The notes under the pieces were generated by a model, which saw nothing but the letters and a program-made list of their open reading frames with translations, made no database searches and was not told where the DNA came from. From Thermoplasmata archaeon (lineage in GTDB: Archaea; Thermoplasmatota; Thermoplasmata; Thermoplasmatales; GCA-001856825), in assembly GCA_021797855.1 (NCBI GenBank), contig JAJZYX010000008.1:1-36091 (forward strand): a stretch of 36,091 bases of DNA. Direction: 5' to 3'. Shown here one piece after another: positions 371-13,545 of the stretch. How positions within the stretch are numbered: the stretch's first letter is position 1; every line of letters begins with the position of its first letter. The position numbers and the translations under genes are program-made.

Positions 371-994
371 ATGCAGGTCTTTATGTCCCATAGCAAAGAC
401 GACCAGAACGGGAGAGATTTCTTTGATAAACTGTTCAGTTCCACTGAACACAGGGCATTTTGGTACTCCTGGGAAGGGCCTAAGCCTCCTCACGCTAAAT
501 CTATAAGAGATGCTATTGAAGGATCGGCATCCGTCTTCGTGATATTATCGAAACCGATGGAGAAACCTTATACTAGATCTTGGGTTGGATACGAGGTAGG
601 GATAGCGAGCGGATTAAATAAAAATGTATGGGTATTTGAACCAGCATGGATTAAACCAGATTTTGTTGATGTTCCAGTTCCTTTTTTAACAGGCTATATA
701 CAGTATCCACAGAAAATTGATAAAAAGACAATATTCCCTTACATCTCATTGGTAGAAAGTGCAGGAACCGCCATTCCAAAAGATCCTGATCCTAAAAGCC
801 TCCCACTTTTTAAATTAGTTACTTGCCCTAATAAAGACTGTAGGGCCCAATACTATAGATTTGTCTTTGGAGGAAATTACAAGTGTCCGGTATGTAGGGG
901 AGGAATTATCCCAGGAGAAATGCAGAAACCCGAGACTAAAGCAACTCCAGCTCCTCCATCAATTCATCCGCCCTCTCGCTCGACACCTTCGTGA
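371..994 (+). CDS. TIR-like domain protein with C-terminal zinc ribbon
   Basis: A 207-residue protein. Residues 1-125 read as a TIR-like fold: MQVFMSHSKDD at the first strand, a SASVFVILS strand near 52-60, and S-x-S-W71-x3-E75 (SRSWVGYE), which is where TIR NADases carry their catalytic glutamate. Residues 152-175 form a zinc ribbon (C152-x4-C157, C172-x2-C175). The last 25 residues are proline-rich and probably disordered. A GAGGT ribosome binding site at 360-364 lies six bases before the ATG. TIR proteins in prokaryotes commonly cleave NAD+ or make signal nucleotides in antiphage defence; that role here is inference. The 3' end overlaps a convergent small gene (936-1142) by 59 bases. No ThsA-like partner lies in the window, so this is not a recognisable Thoeris locus. 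Confidence 0.8.
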   Translation: MQVFMSHSKDDQNGRDFFDKLFSSTEHRAFWYSWEGPKPPHAKSIRDAIEGSASVFVILSKPMEKPYTRSWVGYEVGIASGLNKNVWVFEPAWIKPDFVDVPVPFLTGYIQYPQKIDKKTIFPYISLVESAGTAIPKDPDPKSLPLFKLVTCPNKDCRAQYYRFVFGGNYKCPVCRGGIIPGEMQKPETKATPAPPSIHPPSRSTPS

Positions 995-1518: not shown

Positions 1519-1644
1519 TTAAGGAGTGGTGTTTGCAACGATGGAATTGTAGGTCATAAGCAATAGCAGATAATTGAAGGACTCTGTTATTGACCACAAA
1601 TCAGATAAAGCGTCTTTTAAGTGTCTTTTGCAATGTAAAATCAC
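1519..1644 (-). CDS. Possible 41-aa protein coupled to the GHKL gene
   Basis: A GTG codon at 1644-1642 overlaps the TGA stop of the upstream GHKL ATPase gene by the sequence GTGA, the arrangement typical of translational coupling. The frame stays open for 41 codons (MILHCKRHLKDALSDLW... to ...SIVANTTP). It contains a helical, partly hydrophobic segment (SFNYLLLLM). I do not recognise it. Its length alone would not support a gene; the 4-base overlap is the reason to list it. Confidence 0.3.
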   Translation of the reverse strand: MILHCKRHLKDALSDLWSITESFNYLLLLMTYNSIVANTTP

Positions 1645-3632
1645 AGAGTCATTTGACCACATAAGGAATCAAACACCTCCTTCAGAGCTATCACTTGAAC
1701 ATAATTTCTGTTGTGCTTCAGTCTATATCCAACACCTGGCAGATAACCTTTGAAAGAGATGTCTACCTCCTTTGCTACGCTAAAATAGCCAGTAGGGAGG
1801 TCTTCATCTTTGGTTGCTTCCCAAACGATGGCTAGATTCATGTCCTCGAAGATTTGCTTCCTAGAATAGTCAGATTCGCAGAGATCTGCGGTAGACTTTT
1901 TGAATTCCACTGTAAGTAAGTCCCCTTCATTGATCGAACTCAATCCCACATCACCTGAGCTCAGTATGCCATCGTATATTGTATGGTCGCTTAGCCGTAT
2001 TACTTTATAGTATGGTACGTGCCCTTTAGCCATCATGAAGAAAAAAGTCTGAATTATGTCTTCCTCAGTTTCTGGTAAGGTCAAACGTCCCAAGTATTTT
2101 GATCTCATCTCTGCTACATCCTGTTGTGTTCTTGGGACTTTAGTGAGTTCTTCGGTCTTATCGAACCGTTTACCTTGGACGGTTTGGTCGCGGTCTTCTT
2201 GTTGAGCAACTAATAAAGATGCAAGTTGATGAAGTGTGCGCCATAAATCTTTTCCAAGTTGATTGTACAATCCCTTAGACCGGGGGGGAAGGTTTCGTTT
2301 ACCATAACCTAGTGGTTCGTTGACATCCAAAATAAAATGAACAGACGGTAGATAGCCAAGCTCCGCTCCTGTGATCTCTAGTGCTATGTCCGTAGGCAGC
2401 CCATTAACAGAAAGTGCAAATGTTGCTTTGTGTGCGAGTTTCTGCTTAAGAAAAGGCCTAGATGCGATAAAGAGAATGCCGCCATTTACTCGCTCCAAGG
2501 CCGTAGAGTTATTATCAATTACATTTCTGTCCTCTTCAATTATGTTTGGAGCTGAACTAGGACTCTGTGGATCGTCACTTTTACGCTTCCTAACCTTGCC
2601 TAGCAGAGAAACAACATCGTCATGGGTGAGTTTTGCATAGAAAACTGTAGGTGTCTGATATTGGGTACCTGCCTCAAGAATTGATTTGTAATTTGAAACT
2701 ATAGTTGGACGTTCTTTCACAGGGAGTTTAGCAATGAGCTTTGAAAAATCGACATACTCAACTTGGTCTATCTCATCAAAAGTATCTCCATTAGAAAGTA
2801 TTTGCATCCCCTGAATCCTAACGCTTTCGGCCCCCTGCTTATCACAGATCAGCTTCAATTCGAACTTTATAGGAGGTAATCTCGAATCGCCAAGTAGTCT
2901 GGAAACACACCCCAGATAACTATATTTCTTAAGATAGTAGATGAGAACCCTCATCCATTTGAATGGGGGATAATTATTATCCTTATCAATAATTCTCCCA
3001 GAATTATCTACATTGGTATTGTCTAATCCTGCTTGTTCGAAAAACTCCTTTGCACGATCCCTCAAGAAATCAGCGACACTATAATCATTAAGTTGAAATT
3101 CGAGTTTAGTTCCTGAAGGCTCCCCTGAAGGGGTCTCAATTGGCCATTCAACAGTGCTAGGAAATGATGGATCGGCATATCTGCTGAAACCTTCAAGGGA
3201 TGCTTCCCACTTCGACGCTCCATAAACTGTGCTGATCTTGAAGTAGTTCGAAGTGAATACAGTTGATTTTATTCCAACGCCCTGAGACCCTTTTAGCAAA
3301 CGTCTTATGTCTGGCGCATTGACTCGTTTAGTTCCACTACCCAAGTAAAGAAAGTCTGGGAACTTATCGATTGGCACCCCCTTGCCATTGTCCTTGACGA
3401 TGACCTTATTTGACCCAATGTAGAGTTCAAGAGTAATCTTACGTTCTTGTCCATTATTATAAAAAGAGCCATCTGTGTTCAAAAATGAATCGATAGCATT
3501 TTGAATCGGTTCCTGTATCAACCTCCACTCGGGAGGGTAAGTTTCAATTGTGTTTTTTATTAACACCTCAACGAGTTCCTTGTTTAGTTGCCACAAGCTC
3601 ATTCTCTGACGATTTGAAGTCTGATCTGCCAT
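1641..3632 (-). CDS. GHKL/MORC-like ATPase with C-terminal PD-(D/E)XK nuclease domain
   Basis: A 663-residue protein. The N-terminal 180 residues are a Bergerat-fold (GHKL) ATP-binding domain: N-box E41-P-I-Q-N45, G1 box D81-N-G-K-G85, G2 loop G115-S-Q-G-V-G-I, and a G-T near 174-175. The middle resembles the transducer region of MutL/Hsp90-type proteins. The C-terminal part (about 515-605) carries E522/E523, D554 (YDGIL), E576-x-K578 (VEFKK) and a following IVWEA strand, which fits a PD-(D/E)XK nuclease. MutL/MORC-like ATPases fused or linked to nucleases have been predicted in restriction-modification neighbourhoods (Iyer, Abhiman and Aravind, 2008). A defence role here is inferred from the neighbours. 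A TTATA-like box about 28 bases upstream of the ATG suggests a leaderless transcript. Confidence 0.82.
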   Translation of the reverse strand: MADQTSNRQRMSLWQLNKELVEVLIKNTIETYPPEWRLIQEPIQNAIDSFLNTDGSFYNNGQERKITLELYIGSNKVIVKDNGKGVPIDKFPDFLYLGSGTKRVNAPDIRRLLKGSQGVGIKSTVFTSNYFKISTVYGASKWEASLEGFSRYADPSFPSTVEWPIETPSGEPSGTKLEFQLNDYSVADFLRDRAKEFFEQAGLDNTNVDNSGRIIDKDNNYPPFKWMRVLIYYLKKYSYLGCVSRLLGDSRLPPIKFELKLICDKQGAESVRIQGMQILSNGDTFDEIDQVEYVDFSKLIAKLPVKERPTIVSNYKSILEAGTQYQTPTVFYAKLTHDDVVSLLGKVRKRKSDDPQSPSSAPNIIEEDRNVIDNNSTALERVNGGILFIASRPFLKQKLAHKATFALSVNGLPTDIALEITGAELGYLPSVHFILDVNEPLGYGKRNLPPRSKGLYNQLGKDLWRTLHQLASLLVAQQEDRDQTVQGKRFDKTEELTKVPRTQQDVAEMRSKYLGRLTLPETEEDIIQTFFFMMAKGHVPYYKVIRLSDHTIYDGILSSGDVGLSSINEGDLLTVEFKKSTADLCESDYSRKQIFEDMNLAIVWEATKDEDLPTGYFSVAKEVDISFKGYLPGVGYRLKHNRNYVQVIALKEVFDSLCGQMTL

Positions 3633-3733: not shown

Positions 3734-4489
3734 TTAGAATTTCCACCAGTACCCGCACAGCCATCTCTTCCTCCCATTCTCGGTCAGAGGATTGGCATAG
3801 TCGATGGTCCTGTTCGGCTTCCCGAAAATATCCTCCATCCCCTCGTCATAGAACGACAGGTTTAGCAGGTAGCTTCCCTGGTGCTCATCCATTGCCTTCT
3901 TCAGGTCTATCAGGTCCTTCAGCTTGAAGCTGTGTCTGTATTTCTTGCCGGATGAGATGTATGGCGGGTCCAGATAATAGAACACCTTCGGCTTGCTGTA
4001 TTTCTTCATCAATGCCCTGAAGTCCATATTCTCGATCGTCCAGTCCTTTACGTAGAGGAAATTCTCTATGTGGAATTTTGGGACCCCTTTATGGCCCTTG
4101 AACCTCCTGCCGAATGTAGAGCCGTCTCCCATGAATGAATATGTTTGAAGGTAGAACACCTTGAACGCAGTATCCAAATCGGACCTGAAATTATGATGCC
4201 TCATCAGGAAGAAAGCGTCATGATCCTGGAAGGCTACCCTCAGCCTCCTGGAGAGCTCCAGGCTCTTCCTCCTATTCTGCAGGACCTTGAAAGTGACGTA
4301 GAGATCCCTGTCAAGGTCGTTGTAGACCTTAAGCTTCTTCCATTCGTCCGGTATATTCAGCAGTACCTTTGCAGATCCACCGAAGACATCCACCACCACG
4401 TCGAAGGAGCCCCTATGCTCTCCCATTACCTCCAATATATCCCGCAGCTGGTTGAACTTGCCTCCATAGTATGGGAAGAGGGACCTCAT
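3734..4489 (-). CDS. Dam-like (D12 class) DNA adenine N6-methyltransferase
   Basis: A 251-residue enzyme that would transfer a methyl group from SAM to N6 of adenine in DNA. Motif X is FPYYGGK (residues 5-11), motif I is DVFGGSA (34-40), ND at 57-58 follows, and catalytic motif IV is DPPY (174-177). The start is the ATG at 4489 because family members begin just before the F-x-x-GGK motif; the frame does extend 30 codons further to a TTG at 4579, but those residues do not look like part of the fold. It has no adjacent matching nuclease, so it is an orphan methylase or works with the neighbouring GHKL or Type III genes. It is divergent from the winged-helix gene, with 89 bases between them. Confidence 0.9.
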   Translation of the reverse strand: MRSLFPYYGGKFNQLRDILEVMGEHRGSFDVVVDVFGGSAKVLLNIPDEWKKLKVYNDLDRDLYVTFKVLQNRRKSLELSRRLRVAFQDHDAFFLMRHHNFRSDLDTAFKVFYLQTYSFMGDGSTFGRRFKGHKGVPKFHIENFLYVKDWTIENMDFRALMKKYSKPKVFYYLDPPYISSGKKYRHSFKLKDLIDLKKAMDEHQGSYLLNLSFYDEGMEDIFGKPNRTIDYANPLTENGRKRWLCGYWWKF

Positions 4490-4578
4490 GTTATTGTCGA
4501 ACAAGCAATCATTTTCTCGCGTATAACCATTATTGCCGAATGAGAAATCATTAAGCACCTCTTTCTCATTACTAAACA

Positions 4579-4860
4579 ATGGATCCTCTGAAGGTCCTGG
4601 AGAAGCAGTCGGGTTTCCTGAGGTTATTAGCCTACCTTTCGGACAAGAAGGAGAAGGCCCTCACGGAGATACTGGACGAGACGGATATCCCGGTGCACCA
4701 GCTGTATTCGAGTATCTCTAAAGCGAAGGAACTGGACCTGGTCAAGACTAGGATGGACAGCAAGAAGTATCCACCCAGGAATATGGTATCACTGACAGCC
4801 AAGGGAAAGAAGTTCTCTAAGAAGCTAGAGGAATTGATGAAGATACTGGAAAATGATTAG
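4579..4860 (+). CDS. Winged-helix DNA-binding protein, 93 aa
   Basis: A small protein that reads as a winged helix: helices 1-20, a helix-turn-helix around residues 28-55 (LTEILDETDIPVHQLYSSISKAKEL), a wing with KKYPPRNMVSLTAKG, and a charged C-terminal helix. Proteins of this kind are archaeal transcriptional regulators. It is divergent from the Dam-like gene and separated from it by 89 bases, so regulation of that gene or of itself is a fair guess. A GGATCC sequence (containing GATC) covers the start codon at 4581-4586, which may matter if the neighbouring enzyme methylates GATC; that target is not shown here. Confidence 0.75.
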   Translation: MDPLKVLEKQSGFLRLLAYLSDKKEKALTEILDETDIPVHQLYSSISKAKELDLVKTRMDSKKYPPRNMVSLTAKGKKFSKKLEELMKILEND

Positions 4861-5251: not shown

Positions 5252-8182
5252 TCAATCATGGTAATCGTCTAGAACCCCCTCCCCTGTTACATAGCTCTGG
5301 GTGGGAATAGAATCAAAAATATCTTTGGTGCTTGCCCCTTTCTCCTTCATATCGTAGAATCGAGACTCGCTCAATAAAACATATTTCCATACATAGCTCC
5401 CTCTTAAGTTAAGAGGAAGGTTGTTAATATTTCTTATGAAGTCGAGAGTAGCTTTCCTTTTACTTACAACATTATATGAATTCATATCTTTCTCGGCCTT
5501 TGTCTCTACAATGTAAATAGTCTCGCCTATTCGCACCAAGAAATCAGGGAAATACTTGGCTAGTATGCCATCTTCTCTAAGATACAAAATACCGACAAAT
5601 GGATGGTTATTCCTATCGATCTTGATAAAACTATCAACCTTGGAATCCCTATCTATAAACTCAGTGAAATTACGTTCGAGACCTCCCATATTGGACGGGT
5701 AGGGTAGCCTGTCATAAATGCACTTTGAAACGCTGAGCGAATACTCTTCCCTTACTCTGATCTCCTTTACTTCTGAGAAGTATCTTCTTTGTACTACCGC
5801 TTCCTCGGTGTTTATAGTGTTGATAGCATTGAATACGGATTCTCCTATGTTTTTCAATATATGTGCCAATAAGTCTCGTTCCGACATAATGAGAATGCGC
5901 CAGTTGTTGTCGTTCAACGGGTCAAAATCGACGCCAAAGAGTCGATGTCTTATATATTGATCCAATGCCTCTGCTATAGAAGCCTCCTCTATCTGGATCA
6001 TGGGATAATAGTCATCCCTGCCAATTCTCTTACGCCTGTACGATGTCATGATTCCATTTACCATCTTTGAAAGGAAGGAATTGTAATTTTTGGCTGTGAA
6101 AATATCGCCTGTCACTTCGTATTCCCCAAACCGCACACCTTTTGTTGCTTCTTCACTGTAGAATTTCTCCGAGTTTGAGCCAACCAAAGACTTGAGTTTT
6201 TCTAGCGGAGTCTGATACTTCTCAAGCCTTTCTATCTCTATGTTCAGTTTGCTCAGCGTCTCTTCCCTGTCCCTTATTATAACTGGCCAAAATAGGTCAT
6301 AGCTCTCATAGTCGGGTTTCAAGGGAACACTCAGAAGGTCTCCAACAGCTCTACGGGGAAGGGAAGTATCGGAGGCTATTACATCGCCTAGTTCATCCTC
6401 ATAGAAGTGTAGGAAAGCAGGATGTTCTACAATACTTAAAATATCAATATAGTTGTCAGGTTCTTGCTTCTTTTGCAATAACTTTACCCTGTTCTCCTTT
6501 CGCATCTCCTCGTACTTTGGGTCTCCTCTCCACATCAACCTCAGTCCTCTTCCAACAATTTGCTCCACTAGGATGTTCGATGACGATGCCCTTAGAGGAA
6601 CAATGACACAGATATTGTTAACGTCAAATCCTTCCCTTAGCATCAATACTGACACTATAATTTTTGGTTTTTCATAGCGATCAATGTTGAACACTTTATC
6701 TTTTATGTCTTCCCATTCCTCTTCCGTTACATAATTTCCTCGTCTCTTAATGCCTGTGTGTATCTGCACAATGTCATCATCGGCATAACCTTCCTGTTTG
6801 AGGAAGTCAACTATTTGAGGGACTATATGAGTATTTTCAGCCAATACGAGCATCTTAGGATGCATATTTTTGTCCAATTTCGTGAATTGCTCTTCCAGTA
6901 ATCTCAGCTTTGAGATCCCTGCTCTCAGCATGGCCCTCTGACCATTTGAAATTGCATATTCCCCGCTTCCAACCTTCTCAGAAGAGAAATCCAGCGGTAT
7001 GGATGTTATCTCCTTCCTCTTATCCATAGCCACTATTTTGACCAACCCTTCCTGTATAGCCTTCTCTACGCCGAAGTCAGTGATTATGTGTGGGAAATAG
7101 TGCTTTGTCTTTCTATTTCCACTACCTGTAACATTGTATGGTGTTGCCGTAAAGTCAAGCTCAATGAACACCTTTTTCCGCTCTGAAATTTGGTCAATGG
7201 ATTTCTGCCACTCTTTCTCATATTCTTCTTCGCCTGATATGTATTCTCCCAGATGATGTGCCTCGTCATTAATTACTACAAGCGATTCCAGTTTAGCAAG
7301 AAAATTTAGAGGCATATTTTTCAAGAAGTTATTATCAAGCTCATCAAGGCTGTGACCCGCCCCAGTGGAAGGCGTTAAAGGAAGGATGTCCTCAACTATT
7401 TCCCAAGGTTCATCGCCGCCGTTTTCAGAAGAAAATGATTCATCTGTCATAATCTGGTGCCAGTTCATCAATCCTATGAAGCCATTACCAGTGACTTTCC
7501 TTCCAACTTCCTCCCTCTCAGCAACGTTGTTCTGCACAAATCCTAGAACTTCGTCTTCATAAGCCGACGGTAGAAACAGGTCCTTATGCAACGAGAAGTC
7601 GGAGGAATTAAAATCCCTCTTCCTTTCCTTCATCCCATTCCCATTTTCCCCCAGAGACTCACGACCCTTGAACGCATTCAACAATCTATCATACACAATT
7701 ATGCCTGGCGTAATGATTAAGAAATTATTGGAATATCTTCCAGAGGGTTCAGGCTCGTGCAAATAATTCAGAACCTGCCAGATCAATAATGCTATCATAA
7801 CCCACGTTTTGCCCGTACTCGTTGCCATCTTCATGCAGTATTTTGGATAGCTATACTTGCCATCCTTTATGACTGAGTTATCCATCTGCTCCAGCAATGT
7901 AGCATCTATCGCTTTGTAAACCTGGCTTATGTTCTTAGCTCTTAAAATTTCGTGGATATAAACTGTGTTTAGTATAGCTTGCCATTGTGCGATGTTGAAA
8001 TTGTCCTTCCTGTCGGAATAAGGACCACTAGGGTCCCAAAAATCTATGAGTTCCCTTGTCACAGGCGTTAATTTATCCAGAAAGGATTTCTTGTCATTCC
8101 ATTCCTTCATTACGGTGTTGGTTAGGGCAGACGCAAGCTTTAGCGGAATGTCCTTTGTTCCAATTGCCTTAGGATACGCCAT
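5252..8182 (-). CDS. res: Type III restriction enzyme, Res subunit
   Basis: A 976-residue protein of the length usual for Type III Res subunits. It has a superfamily 2 helicase core: Walker A ATSTGKT (120-126), DEAH box (306-309), DFTATP (343-348) and motif VI QIVGRGLR (541-548). The C-terminus carries the endonuclease: FPD880, then VE893-T-K895. Res uses ATP to communicate between two inversely oriented recognition sites and cuts unmodified DNA, in complex with Mod. Its ATG at 8182 overlaps the Mod stop by one base (TAATG), so the two are one operon and translation is coupled. All key motifs are intact, so the enzyme should be functional. Confidence 0.95.
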   Translation of the reverse strand: MAYPKAIGTKDIPLKLASALTNTVMKEWNDKKSFLDKLTPVTRELIDFWDPSGPYSDRKDNFNIAQWQAILNTVYIHEILRAKNISQVYKAIDATLLEQMDNSVIKDGKYSYPKYCMKMATSTGKTWVMIALLIWQVLNYLHEPEPSGRYSNNFLIITPGIIVYDRLLNAFKGRESLGENGNGMKERKRDFNSSDFSLHKDLFLPSAYEDEVLGFVQNNVAEREEVGRKVTGNGFIGLMNWHQIMTDESFSSENGGDEPWEIVEDILPLTPSTGAGHSLDELDNNFLKNMPLNFLAKLESLVVINDEAHHLGEYISGEEEYEKEWQKSIDQISERKKVFIELDFTATPYNVTGSGNRKTKHYFPHIITDFGVEKAIQEGLVKIVAMDKRKEITSIPLDFSSEKVGSGEYAISNGQRAMLRAGISKLRLLEEQFTKLDKNMHPKMLVLAENTHIVPQIVDFLKQEGYADDDIVQIHTGIKRRGNYVTEEEWEDIKDKVFNIDRYEKPKIIVSVLMLREGFDVNNICVIVPLRASSSNILVEQIVGRGLRLMWRGDPKYEEMRKENRVKLLQKKQEPDNYIDILSIVEHPAFLHFYEDELGDVIASDTSLPRRAVGDLLSVPLKPDYESYDLFWPVIIRDREETLSKLNIEIERLEKYQTPLEKLKSLVGSNSEKFYSEEATKGVRFGEYEVTGDIFTAKNYNSFLSKMVNGIMTSYRRKRIGRDDYYPMIQIEEASIAEALDQYIRHRLFGVDFDPLNDNNWRILIMSERDLLAHILKNIGESVFNAINTINTEEAVVQRRYFSEVKEIRVREEYSLSVSKCIYDRLPYPSNMGGLERNFTEFIDRDSKVDSFIKIDRNNHPFVGILYLREDGILAKYFPDFLVRIGETIYIVETKAEKDMNSYNVVSKRKATLDFIRNINNLPLNLRGSYVWKYVLLSESRFYDMKEKGASTKDIFDSIPTQSYVTGEGVLDDYHD

Positions 8183-10356
8183 TAAGTAACCACCTTCGTT
8201 ACCACGCTCTCAAAACCAAATATATCTACCGCTTTTATACAGACTTTCCTTGGCCCCATCACTTTCGGAAGAGATAGGACGACCGCCCTGTCCACTTTAA
8301 GCGAGTCGTGATTTTCTCTGTAGTCTTGCCAGATGCTCCTGAAGGTTTTATCATCATAGTCCGGATCTATGCTCCAGTATTCAATCAAAGACAGAGGGTC
8401 TTCATCGATAAGCTTATCCAGCTTCTTTTTGTCTTCATCGTCAAGTGGAAGAGCTTCAGGTGACAGCAGTACATAATTTTCCAGTTCCACCTTCAAGGTT
8501 TCTATAGAATCCTGTGAACTCTCTCTTTTGATAGGTCTCACGGTAAGATACTGCAACGATGAAAAACGTATTTGACCAGTTTTAATAAGCTGTTCGTAGC
8601 TTGACTTCCTCCTTAATTTTTCGAGAAGGTCAGATGGTATGACAAGCAATTCCAGCTTCTTCTTATCTAAGTCCACGCTGAAATCCCTCAGGATATCATT
8701 AATCTTAGGGTCAAAATTCCAGCCTAATATTACTACCTTCTCCCATCCACCGACGAAGTTATCCCTCATTTCAACAGCTCTTCTTATTGTAGCTCTACCA
8801 GTTATCTTATTAGGGGAATCAACAAATACCAGAATTTTCCCCTCCTTCTTGTATCCAAGATTTGAGGGAGTTCCCTCTTCTTGAGGGAACAAGGTAGCGC
8901 CATACAGCCTAAGGATTACTTGGGCCAAGTCGCCCACACGCTTGAATTGTGATCTTTCAAACTGTTCTTTCTGGTAGTCTCCAATTGATTGGTATAGAAA
9001 CGGTTTTGAATCTTGGTCAATAAGACGTTTTCTAGATATCATTATTGCAGGTTTCCCAATATCGCACATAATCCATTTTCTTCCAAGCTTTTCTGCTACT
9101 GCTCCCGTAGTACCCGAGCCTGCGAAGAAATCGGCAACAACCGAATCTTTATTTGAAGATATCTCTATAACTCTCTTAAGAAGTTTTTCTGGTTTTTCTG
9201 TATCGTATCTAGCCCCACCTTTCATTGTTCCAACATCTTGCCAGATGCTCTGTATAGCCATGCCTTCCATTTCATCTAGAAACTTTATGTGGCATCTACT
9301 CGATGCTTTACCGTCCTTCAACAATATTTCGCCATTTTTTAACATTTCATCTAATTTTTCTTTAGAATATCTCCAGCCCGTTGAAGGAGTGAATCCATAC
9401 CATTCGAACATCCTAGAAGGAGTGTATTTTGGTGCTGTAGTATTCTCCAATTTGAAGTATCTACCTGCTTTGCCCTCACTCTGTGCTGCGGGTATAACAG
9501 AGCCGTTATCCAACATAAAATACGAATATTCCGCTAATGCAGATTCAGATGGCTTTATTTTCTTTTGATTAAATATGTAATTAGCACCCTTTTTATATAA
9601 TAGAATGGTTTGGTGAATTTTTCCATAACTTCCCTTTACATTATTTTTAGGGTCTGTAGACTGCCATATTATTTCATTTACGAAGTTTCTCCTGTCAAAT
9701 ATACTATCCATAATTACTTTTACATAATGACTTACGTGCCAATCGAGATGCACATAAATACTACCGCTATCACTCAGTAGTTCATACATAAGGTATAAGC
9801 TAGGAACAATTGTCTCAAGATAAGATTTTGTTCCATCTTTCCACATATCCGAGTAAGCGAACTGTTCTATAACCGACGGTTTTTGTTCAACGTCCGCAGA
9901 GGGAAGGTGTATTTTTGTTCTATAGTCTGCCTTGCTGTCAAAAGGCGGGTCAATATAAATCAGATCTATTTTCCCTCTCATTGACGGAAGCCCAGATTCA
10001 GGGTCTCCAGCTAAGAGTGCTTGCATTACGTACAGGTTATCCCCATAAATCAATCTATTGATAAAATTTCCTTTAGAAGAAATATCGTTGGTCTTAGTTG
10101 GAAGCTTAGAATCAGGTTGAGCTTTAGATGGGATAACAAACTCGTTAGTTTGTAGAGTCATTCTTTCTTTTGAAATATCAGAAAGTATTCTTTCGGCTTC
10201 CCTTTTTCCCTTTTCAACTATCCTAGGAAGCTCCGCTATTAAAGAAACTGACTCTACTGAATTTTTCTCCTTATCTAGATCGGCGCTTACGTCCTTCTTT
10301 GCTATATTGTTCAAAGTCGTTTCTCCGATTTCTAACTGGTTTGGATCTTTCGTCAT
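8182..10356 (-). CDS. mod: Type III restriction-modification methyltransferase, Mod subunit
   Basis: A 724-residue beta-class adenine methyltransferase that recognises the site and methylates N6-adenine on one strand. Motif IV DPPF (136-139) comes before motif [11 protein letters not shown] (409-418), the order that defines the beta class, and TEKP precedes motif I. The roughly 260 residues between the motifs should contain the target recognition domain. The start is the ATG at 10356, not the longer frame reaching 10416, because a TATA box (CTTTATATC, 10379-10387, minus strand) lies about 27 bases upstream and would place transcription initiation on that ATG. No homopolymer or short tandem repeat that would suggest phase variation is visible in the gene. 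Confidence 0.94.
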
Positions 10357-10378
10357 CTTTGTAATTATTCTGCAGTTA

Positions 10379-10388
10379 GATATAAAGG
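10379..10388 (-). promoter_or_regulatory. TATA box of the mod-res operon
   Basis: The minus strand reads CTTTATATC here, centred about 27 bases before the mod ATG. This fits an archaeal TATA box driving a leaderless transcript and separates the true mod start from the upstream in-frame codons. Confidence 0.6.
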
Positions 10389-10581
10389 TATGCAGACTTG
10401 ACAGAACCACAACCAAAAAACTTTAAGATACTTTACACGGTAAACAGGGCCGGGGAAAATTTAGAAGTGACGCTTCTTAGGGTATGTAATCATAAACAAG
10501 TATATGGAAAAGATTAAAAATTAGACCCACCCCTCAACAAACTCCCTCATCTCTTTTTTGCCTTGATAAAGGAATCGGGTC

Positions 10582-10792: not shown

Positions 10793-11242
10793 TCAGATAT
10801 TATTGGTAGTTATTCCATTGTCAACGATATCTAAATCCTCTTGAAATTCTGACTTTAAGATCCTGCTATCAGCTCCGTTCAATGGTGGTTTTTCATGATG
10901 TTCCTGCTCGAATCGTCTCAATAAATTATATTCTTCTATCTTGATTCTATCTGAGCTAATTTTTTTCCAAAAGAATTCGGAATCGTGTCCATATTCCTTG
11001 ACAAATCGGTGTATTTTCCTATTAGTCCATTGTGTCCTTCCGGGATTATAATATTGATTAAATCTACGTTTGAGATTTTTCGAACTACCTATGTAAACTA
11101 TGTCTGTTTCTCCCTTGATTCTAGAGAATGGCTTACCCGATTTCAAGCGTAGAAAGTAGACCCCAGGCTCTTCTGGAGCTGATTTAAAGGCTGAATCAAA
11201 ATCGGCATATTCCTCGAATCCTCTAAGGTCAGCAGACTTCAT
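10793..11242 (-). CDS. GIY-YIG family endonuclease
   Basis: A 149-residue protein. The GIY-YIG motifs are G27-V-Y29 and Y50-I-G52, followed by the arginine near 59-60 (NLKRR), E112 (RRFEQE) and N122 (PPLNGAD), so the known catalytic residues are all present. The domain hydrolyses DNA phosphodiester bonds. There is no extra DNA-binding domain beyond the short N-terminal segment, and the ~25 residues after the core are acidic. It lies upstream of the Type III pair on the same strand but is separated by about 430 bases holding a pseudogene and the mod promoter. It has its own TATA-like box (AATATAAAAG, minus strand, about 11275-11284). It could be a stand-alone nuclease or part of the defence island. 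Confidence 0.85.
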   Translation of the reverse strand: MKSADLRGFEEYADFDSAFKSAPEEPGVYFLRLKSGKPFSRIKGETDIVYIGSSKNLKRRFNQYYNPGRTQWTNRKIHRFVKEYGHDSEFFWKKISSDRIKIEEYNLLRRFEQEHHEKPPLNGADSRILKSEFQEDLDIVDNGITTNNI

Positions 11243-12915: not shown

Positions 12916-13545
12916 ATGGCAACATCCTTGAGCATTGTTTTGGGAGCACTCGTAGCTTCCATCATCCTAATCATAGTAATCACTCTGCTGTACGAGAGAA
13001 GGGTTTCGAGGCTCAGAATCCAAATTGAGGGCGAAAGGCTAAACATGCAGAAAACAGCCCAGGACCTTGCCCAGAAACTCTTCAGTCAGTGGAGTGACGC
13101 CAGCCTGCGGTCGATTGAAGCAAAGATAACGGAGACGATAAAGAGGGACTACGAGGTGCAGCTAGAATCTTGGAAGAAGCAGGAAGAAAAGAAGATCAGG
13201 GAAGATGCGGTACAGAAATCAATCAACACCCTCCTTGGAAAGATAGGCGAGGAATTCTCCCCTGTTTTGCTGTCCAACAGGTTTGGAATAAATCTGAAAG
13301 ATTTCAGGCACCTGGGCACCCCGGTGGACTTCATTGCCTTCAAGGGACTAAGCGACGATTCTGAGAATGTTGAAATCCTGTTCCTGGAAATAAAGAGCGG
13401 GAAGAACTCCAGCTTGGTGGAGAGGGAAAGGAAGGTTAGGGATGCGGTGGCGAGCGGAAGGGTGGCATATGAGGTAGTGAATATAAACGATATAGTTGGA
13501 GCATTCAAGGAAGAAGTGGGGAAATTAAGTCAGGATGTCCTTTAG
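12916..13545 (+). CDS. Membrane-anchored Holliday-junction-resolvase-like nuclease
   Basis: A 209-residue protein with one membrane helix (residues 5-26), a coiled-coil (28-100) and a C-terminal PD-(D/E)XK domain: E112/E113, D138 (TPVDFIAFKG), E158-I-K160 (FLEIKSGK). The architecture matches the family annotated as endonucleases related to archaeal Holliday junction resolvases (Endonuc_Holl). The anchor would place the nuclease domain at the cytoplasmic face of the membrane. The substrate is not known. A CTTTTTAGA box about 26 bases upstream of the ATG suggests a leaderless transcript. It is convergent with the exported protein downstream. Confidence 0.8.
   Translation: MATSLSIVLGALVASIILIIVITLLYERRVSRLRIQIEGERLNMQKTAQDLAQKLFSQWSDASLRSIEAKITETIKRDYEVQLESWKKQEEKKIREDAVQKSINTLLGKIGEEFSPVLLSNRFGINLKDFRHLGTPVDFIAFKGLSDDSENVEILFLEIKSGKNSSLVERERKVRDAVASGRVAYEVVNINDIVGAFKEEVGKLSQDVL

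Follow-up and report, generated by a model that had tools for sequence, protein, structure and literature searches.

The window, i.e., the whole 36,091-nucleotide stretch of Thermoplasmata archaeon DNA that was analyzed, has a low GC content (36-46%) from 1 to 13 kb; beyond this the GC content is mostly 43-53%, and core genes are found, such as those for EF-2 and EF-1A. The low-GC island of ~13 kb holds TIR-like, P0001, D12 methylase, winged-helix, Type III-like Res and Mod, and GIY-YIG genes. An earlier note on this DNA had spoken of an archaeal defense island, and an AT-rich region with restriction-modification (R-M), TIR-like, and GIY-YIG genes was indeed found. The features of the locus are listed below.

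371-994, plus strand: gene with a TIR-like domain, at the end of the contig (PF13676, E 0.0014, below cut-off; weakly similar to ThsB)
1641-3632, minus strand: P0001, predicted GHKL ATPase-nuclease fusion gene (663 residues; full-length relatives found)
2868-3632, minus strand: N-terminal GHKL (Bergerat) ATPase domain of P0001, residues 1-255 (E41, N45, D81-N-G-x-G85, K102, G115, G118-V-G120)
2193-2867, minus strand: middle S5-type transducer domain of P0001, residues 256-480 (basic finger G444-K445, codon 2300-2298)
1644-2120, minus strand: putative C-terminal PD-(D/E)XK-like nuclease domain of P0001, residues 505-663 (conserved motif and AlphaFold2 model)
2066-2064, 1973-1971, and 1907-1899, minus strand: nuclease-motif codons for E523, D554, and E576-F-K578, respectively
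3734-4579, minus strand: D12-class (Dam-like) N6-adenine methylase gene (PF02086, E 2.2e-14), upstream of P0001 with a gap of ~100 bp
4579-4860, plus strand: divergent winged-helix regulator gene (PF13601, E 4.6e-5, below cut-off)
5252-8182, minus strand: Type III-like Res helicase gene (PF04851, E 1e-12; PADLOC REase_III, E 1.8e-24)
8182-10416, minus strand: Type III-like Mod methylase gene (PF01555, E 8.7e-43; PADLOC MTase_III, E 4.9e-75)
10793-11242, minus strand: gene for a small GIY-YIG nuclease (PF01541, E 4.9e-6), upstream of Mod
12916-13545, plus strand: endonuclease gene related to Holliday junction resolvases (PF10107, E 4.5e-55), close to the island's GC boundary (~13 kb)

The reading frame of P0001 had previously been given, with no strand, as 1641-3632 and 663 residues; both figures were exact, and the gene lies on the minus strand. 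The complete Bergerat ATP site that had been described was present (E41, N45, D81-N-G83-x-G85, G115, and the G118-V-G120 loop), as were D554, E576, and K578 under their correct numbers. Of the two acidic residues that had been proposed at 522 and 523, E523 is the invariant acid and is followed by E524, whereas residue 522 is a threonine. Other residues of note in the C-terminal domain are Y553, Q593, and W604. When P0001 was compared with Pfam, HATPase_c_3 scored under its curated cut-off (E 0.0012) and HATPase_c was also weak, and the C-terminal part matched no Pfam family and none of the PADLOC models. A scan for TATA-like boxes returned the counts expected by chance, and no promoter is claimed.

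Conservation of the ATPase and nuclease motifs

Relatives were gathered by profile searches from distant archaeal and plasmid matches, together with one scan of genome contigs. We found 17 distinct full-length relatives in bacteria and archaea (n = 18 with P0001), and the family spans archaea, Pseudomonadota, Bacteroidota, Bacillota, and Actinomycetota, the hosts being Psychrobacter, Pontibacter, Streptomyces, Metabacillus, Brevundimonas, Rhizobium, Lactiplantibacillus, Halobacterium, a Thermoplasmatales MAG, and others. The sole close relative, L032, whose source is probably an archaeal MAG in the class to which the host of P0001 belongs, was 51% identical by tblastn (50%, 55%, and 44% in the N-terminal, middle, and C-terminal domains, respectively). 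Identity of the remaining relatives to P0001 was ~16-22% overall and, in the C-terminal domain, about 14-22%. Because residues 407-625 of P0001 alone aligned to the relative L028 (E 7e-7), the homology of the C-terminal half is independent of the ATPase.

At the ATP site, E41, Q44, N45, D81, G83, G85, G115, G118, and G120 were invariant in all 18 proteins, and K102 (17/18), V119 (17/18), and N82 (16/18) were less strictly kept. Outside the ATP site the invariant residues were G241, G444, E523, Y553, D554, E576, and K578, including the three (D554, E576, and K578) whose conservation the earlier note had singled out as decisive. Position 445 was always basic (Arg in 16 proteins, Lys in P0001 and L032). 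The spacing of the nuclease motif was also rigid: E523 and D554 were 31 residues apart in 18/18, and 15-17 residues past the E-x-K there was a K, Q, or R in every member (position 593), followed 11 residues later by a W, which is replaced by F in L028.

A search of PDB sequences gave no match with P0001 alone, GHKL proteins only with the family, and a single match (E 0.87) with the nuclease domain; a scan of viral sequences with P0001 alone gave no match, and a CoiA_nuc match in one family member (E 0.08) was too weak for use. Matches to Hsp90/HtpG (among L008-L018), topoisomerase VI B (L019), and T4-type topoisomerases of phages (L046-L049) were dropped from the family, having the GHKL fold alone in common with it. 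In the copy on a plasmid of Halobacterium sp. DL1 (L004:8962-10953), a single in-frame stop separates the ATPase half from the nuclease half, so that the gene is probably broken or misread. No experiments on the P0001 family were found in the literature searched.

Predicted structure

The AlphaFold2 model of full-length P0001 was of low confidence (mean pLDDT 60, pTM 0.49). Its N-terminal and middle parts have an Hsp90-like fold, aligning to Hsp90 over ~490 columns with a best E of 2.6e-12 and ~14% identity, and the Bergerat motifs and the S5-type middle domain with its basic finger are features of the GHKL superfamily. P0001 resembles Hsp90/HtpG in having N and middle domains with a basic finger in the latter. 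It differs in that the middle domain is followed by the predicted nuclease domain, and the C-terminal dimerization domain of Hsp90 was not identified in it.

When modeled alone, the C-terminal domain gave a pLDDT of 86 and a pTM of 0.84. The order of its elements, alpha-beta-beta-beta-alpha-beta, is the PD-(D/E)XK topology; E523 lies in the first helix, D554 at the second strand, and E576-x-K578 in the third, and the domain has the residue pattern of that fold, i.e., a helix-1 acid, D, E-x-K, and a later K/Q/R. Foldseek searches with this model returned nothing significant (best E 0.13 in the PDB and 0.044 among viral entries); the weak matches were repeatedly PD-(D/E)XK proteins, i.e., Bax1, Can2, MspJI, and Mrr-type and phage endonucleases, which is suggestive only. 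A PD-(D/E)XK-like fold, as had been predicted, is seen in the model but not in a significant match to a solved structure. The conserved motif and the model strengthen the prediction that the C-terminal domain is a nuclease, and they back the earlier claim that a GHKL ATPase and a restriction-type nuclease are combined in a single polypeptide.

Comparison with Shedu, paraMORC3, and Tiamat

VcSduA, described in 2025, is a Shedu protein with a GHKL N-terminus in which both sites are needed for phage protection; protection was lost with either E27A or K557A, and cultures were protected at every MOI tested (PMC12137116). It resembles P0001 in its domain order within one polypeptide and in its conserved GHKL motifs. 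For comparison we collected VcSduA-like proteins (L059 and L062-L065). Their N-domains were related to those of the P0001 family by profile (E 2.9e-11). The nuclease profile of the P0001 family, when compared with SduA_C/DUF4263, gave a probability of 0.3% (E 0.22), and the positive control, i.e., Shedu against the VcSduA-like nuclease profile, gave an E of 3e-24. There was no match to PF14082 in P0001, in its order, or in six genomes holding relatives. With an unrelated nuclease profile and no SduA_C match, membership of P0001 in Shedu was rejected.

In the tree, the VcSduA-like GHKL domains formed a separate clade (98/96), and the branch uniting the whole P0001 family had a weak bootstrap of 54 and an SH-aLRT of 96. 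Three groups made up the P0001 family: one, on a long branch, was the pair of P0001 and L032; another included the methylase-linked relatives L007 and L027; and the genes of the third are mostly standalone. P0001 and L032 are a divergent archaeal branch. Of four VcSduA-like genes examined on plasmids, three (L062, L063, and L064) lie directly after a cytosine methylase gene, which two of them overlap, suggesting a linked methylase; P0001 and L032, by contrast, do not follow a cytosine methylase gene. By analogy, the best reading is that P0001 would work like VcSduA, yet is no member of Shedu.

This architecture has precedents. Iyer, Abhiman and Aravind (2008) described paraMORC3 as GHKL and S5 domains with a C-terminal RE-fold domain carrying E-D-ExK, distributed sporadically among bacteria and archaea, with some members encoded by standalone genes that have no conserved neighbors (PMC2292703). 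P0001 fits that architecture and motif, a likeness drawn from the published description. P0001 and L032 differ in that they make up a long branch of archaeal proteins, in which the S5 finger has Lys in place of Arg and the E-x-K is followed by Gln instead of Lys. The idea in the earlier note of an ATP-gated nuclease directed at foreign DNA, which we propose as the best reading, is therefore not new, given the 2008 prediction for paraMORC3 (PMC2292703) and the 2025 work on phage defense by VcSduA (PMC12137116). The predicted nuclease domain of P0001, however, falls under no Pfam or PADLOC family and differs from that of Shedu.

The GHKL N-domain of some relatives also scored against TmtA or MzaB models. 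The models for TmtA, the Tiamat protein, are 1063-1782 positions long, and only ~50-110 residues of the ATPase domain of some relatives match them. P0001 itself matched neither TmtA nor MzaB, and identity with these systems was rejected.

Distribution, gene neighborhood, and proposed function

At a threshold of E 1e-10, two of the 117 genomes of the order gave a match, i.e., that of the window itself and one with a match to the N-domain only (142 positions). No match came from the 10 other genomes of the genus, and samples of two other groups yielded 1-2 per 200-300 genomes, the center genome included. The distribution of the family is sporadic.

The earlier note had linked P0001 with the Dam-like methylase and the Type III system, a link that was not supported. 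An OLD-type nuclease gene adjoins L032, near which there is neither a methylase nor a Type III gene; in the window itself, the winged-helix gene stands between the methylase/GHKL pair and the Type III genes. The neighbors of other relatives vary: L029 and L031 have cytosine methylase (Dcm) genes nearby; L027 has Dcm, Vsr, and UvrD genes beside it; L026 sits on a prophage contig, and some other relatives are on plasmids; and housekeeping-looking genes surround L034, L038, and others. Most of the distant relatives are standalone or next to unrelated restriction genes, with methylases of varying type or none. Neither Mod nor Res was recognized beside the other relatives, so that the conserved linkage expected of a Type III R-M subunit was not seen. 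With no conserved partner, a protein of the P0001 family most likely acts alone. Since many relatives lie among housekeeping genes, context does not prove a defense role.

We consider it probable that P0001 is an ATP-gated DNA nuclease, complete in one protein, that works by itself against foreign DNA. Its GHKL and S5-type middle domains, the latter with the basic finger residue K445, would make up an ATP-driven, dimeric clamp like those of Hsp90 and MutL, and the PD-(D/E)XK-like domain would sit where Hsp90 and MutL carry a C-terminal dimerization or endonuclease domain. Binding of ATP may close the clamp on DNA and so bring two nuclease domains together, with DNA being cut via E523, D554, E576, and K578 around Mg2+; cutting would hence depend on engaging foreign DNA. 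The antiviral or antiplasmid role is suggested by analogy with VcSduA. This reading is favored by the invariant residues of both sites, the confident C-terminal model with its PD-(D/E)XK order, the alignment to Hsp90, the patchy distribution, the low-GC island beside core genes, and the defense genes or prophage near several relatives; the nonsignificant Foldseek matches, the poor full-length model, and the many housekeeping neighborhoods count against it.

A different possibility, which we regard as unlikely, is that P0001 is a MutL-type nuclease of repair or recombination, whose clamp would find host mismatches or branched or damaged DNA for the nuclease to nick. Endonuclease-type MutL likewise combines GHKL, S5, and nuclease domains, and NCBIfam MutL models match some members of the family weakly. 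Several relatives have housekeeping genes around them, e.g., a UvrB-like gene by L033 and a RecN-like gene by L044 (both judged from the sequence start only), and similar recruitment has been suggested for standalone paraMORC3 (Iyer et al., PMC2292703). However, a core repair role does not fit the patchy distribution, the lack of homologues in the other genomes of the genus, or the location in an island, and the plasmid and prophage copies also argue against it. Less likely again is that P0001 belongs to an R-M system as a subunit, with the D12 methylase, the Type III Mod-Res pair, or both as its partners; it might, for example, loop the DNA that lies between the sites of recognition and cleavage, a role that has been proposed for MORC/paraMORC. 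Although the methylase gene is on the same strand and only ~100 bp upstream, the Type III genes are within 2-7 kb, and cytosine methylases occur beside some relatives, a protein as similar as L032 has neither partner nearby, the methylases beside other relatives vary in type or are absent, and the cluster itself is interrupted by a divergently oriented regulator gene. It is very improbable that the C-terminal domain is something other than a DNA nuclease (cleaving RNA, or binding nucleic acid with the residues kept for structure), as the lack of Pfam and significant solved-structure matches might allow, because a metal-dependent PD-(D/E)XK site requires just what is seen here, namely E, D, E-x-K and a later K/Q/R, rigidly spaced in 18/18 members, and the predicted topology of the core.

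Returning to the ATP-gated nuclease that acts alone, a broader proposal, to which we give somewhat less than an even chance, is that the P0001 family comprises independently assembled, standalone GHKL-nuclease immune enzymes, with a nuclease unrelated to Shedu and outside Pfam and PADLOC, and with P0001 and L032 as its most divergent branch bar single long-branch rows; the layout would then have arisen more than once. In VcSduA, both the GHKL and the nuclease site are needed for phage protection. A second family with the same plan and another nuclease domain would make the ATP clamp a reusable gating module, extended to archaea, and defense catalogues would gain a model for a standalone gene that is now missed.

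Two other gene neighborhoods were seen among the relatives. The Streptomyces gene (L043:8944-12208) is followed ~90 bp on by a gene for an AspBHI-N/Mrr_cat endonuclease, i.e., of the modification-dependent type. Near L029:3852-6194 (genome G434) there are genes for an HhH-GPD glycosylase and a C5 methylase, two genes apart, an arrangement like that of R-M modules with mismatch correction.
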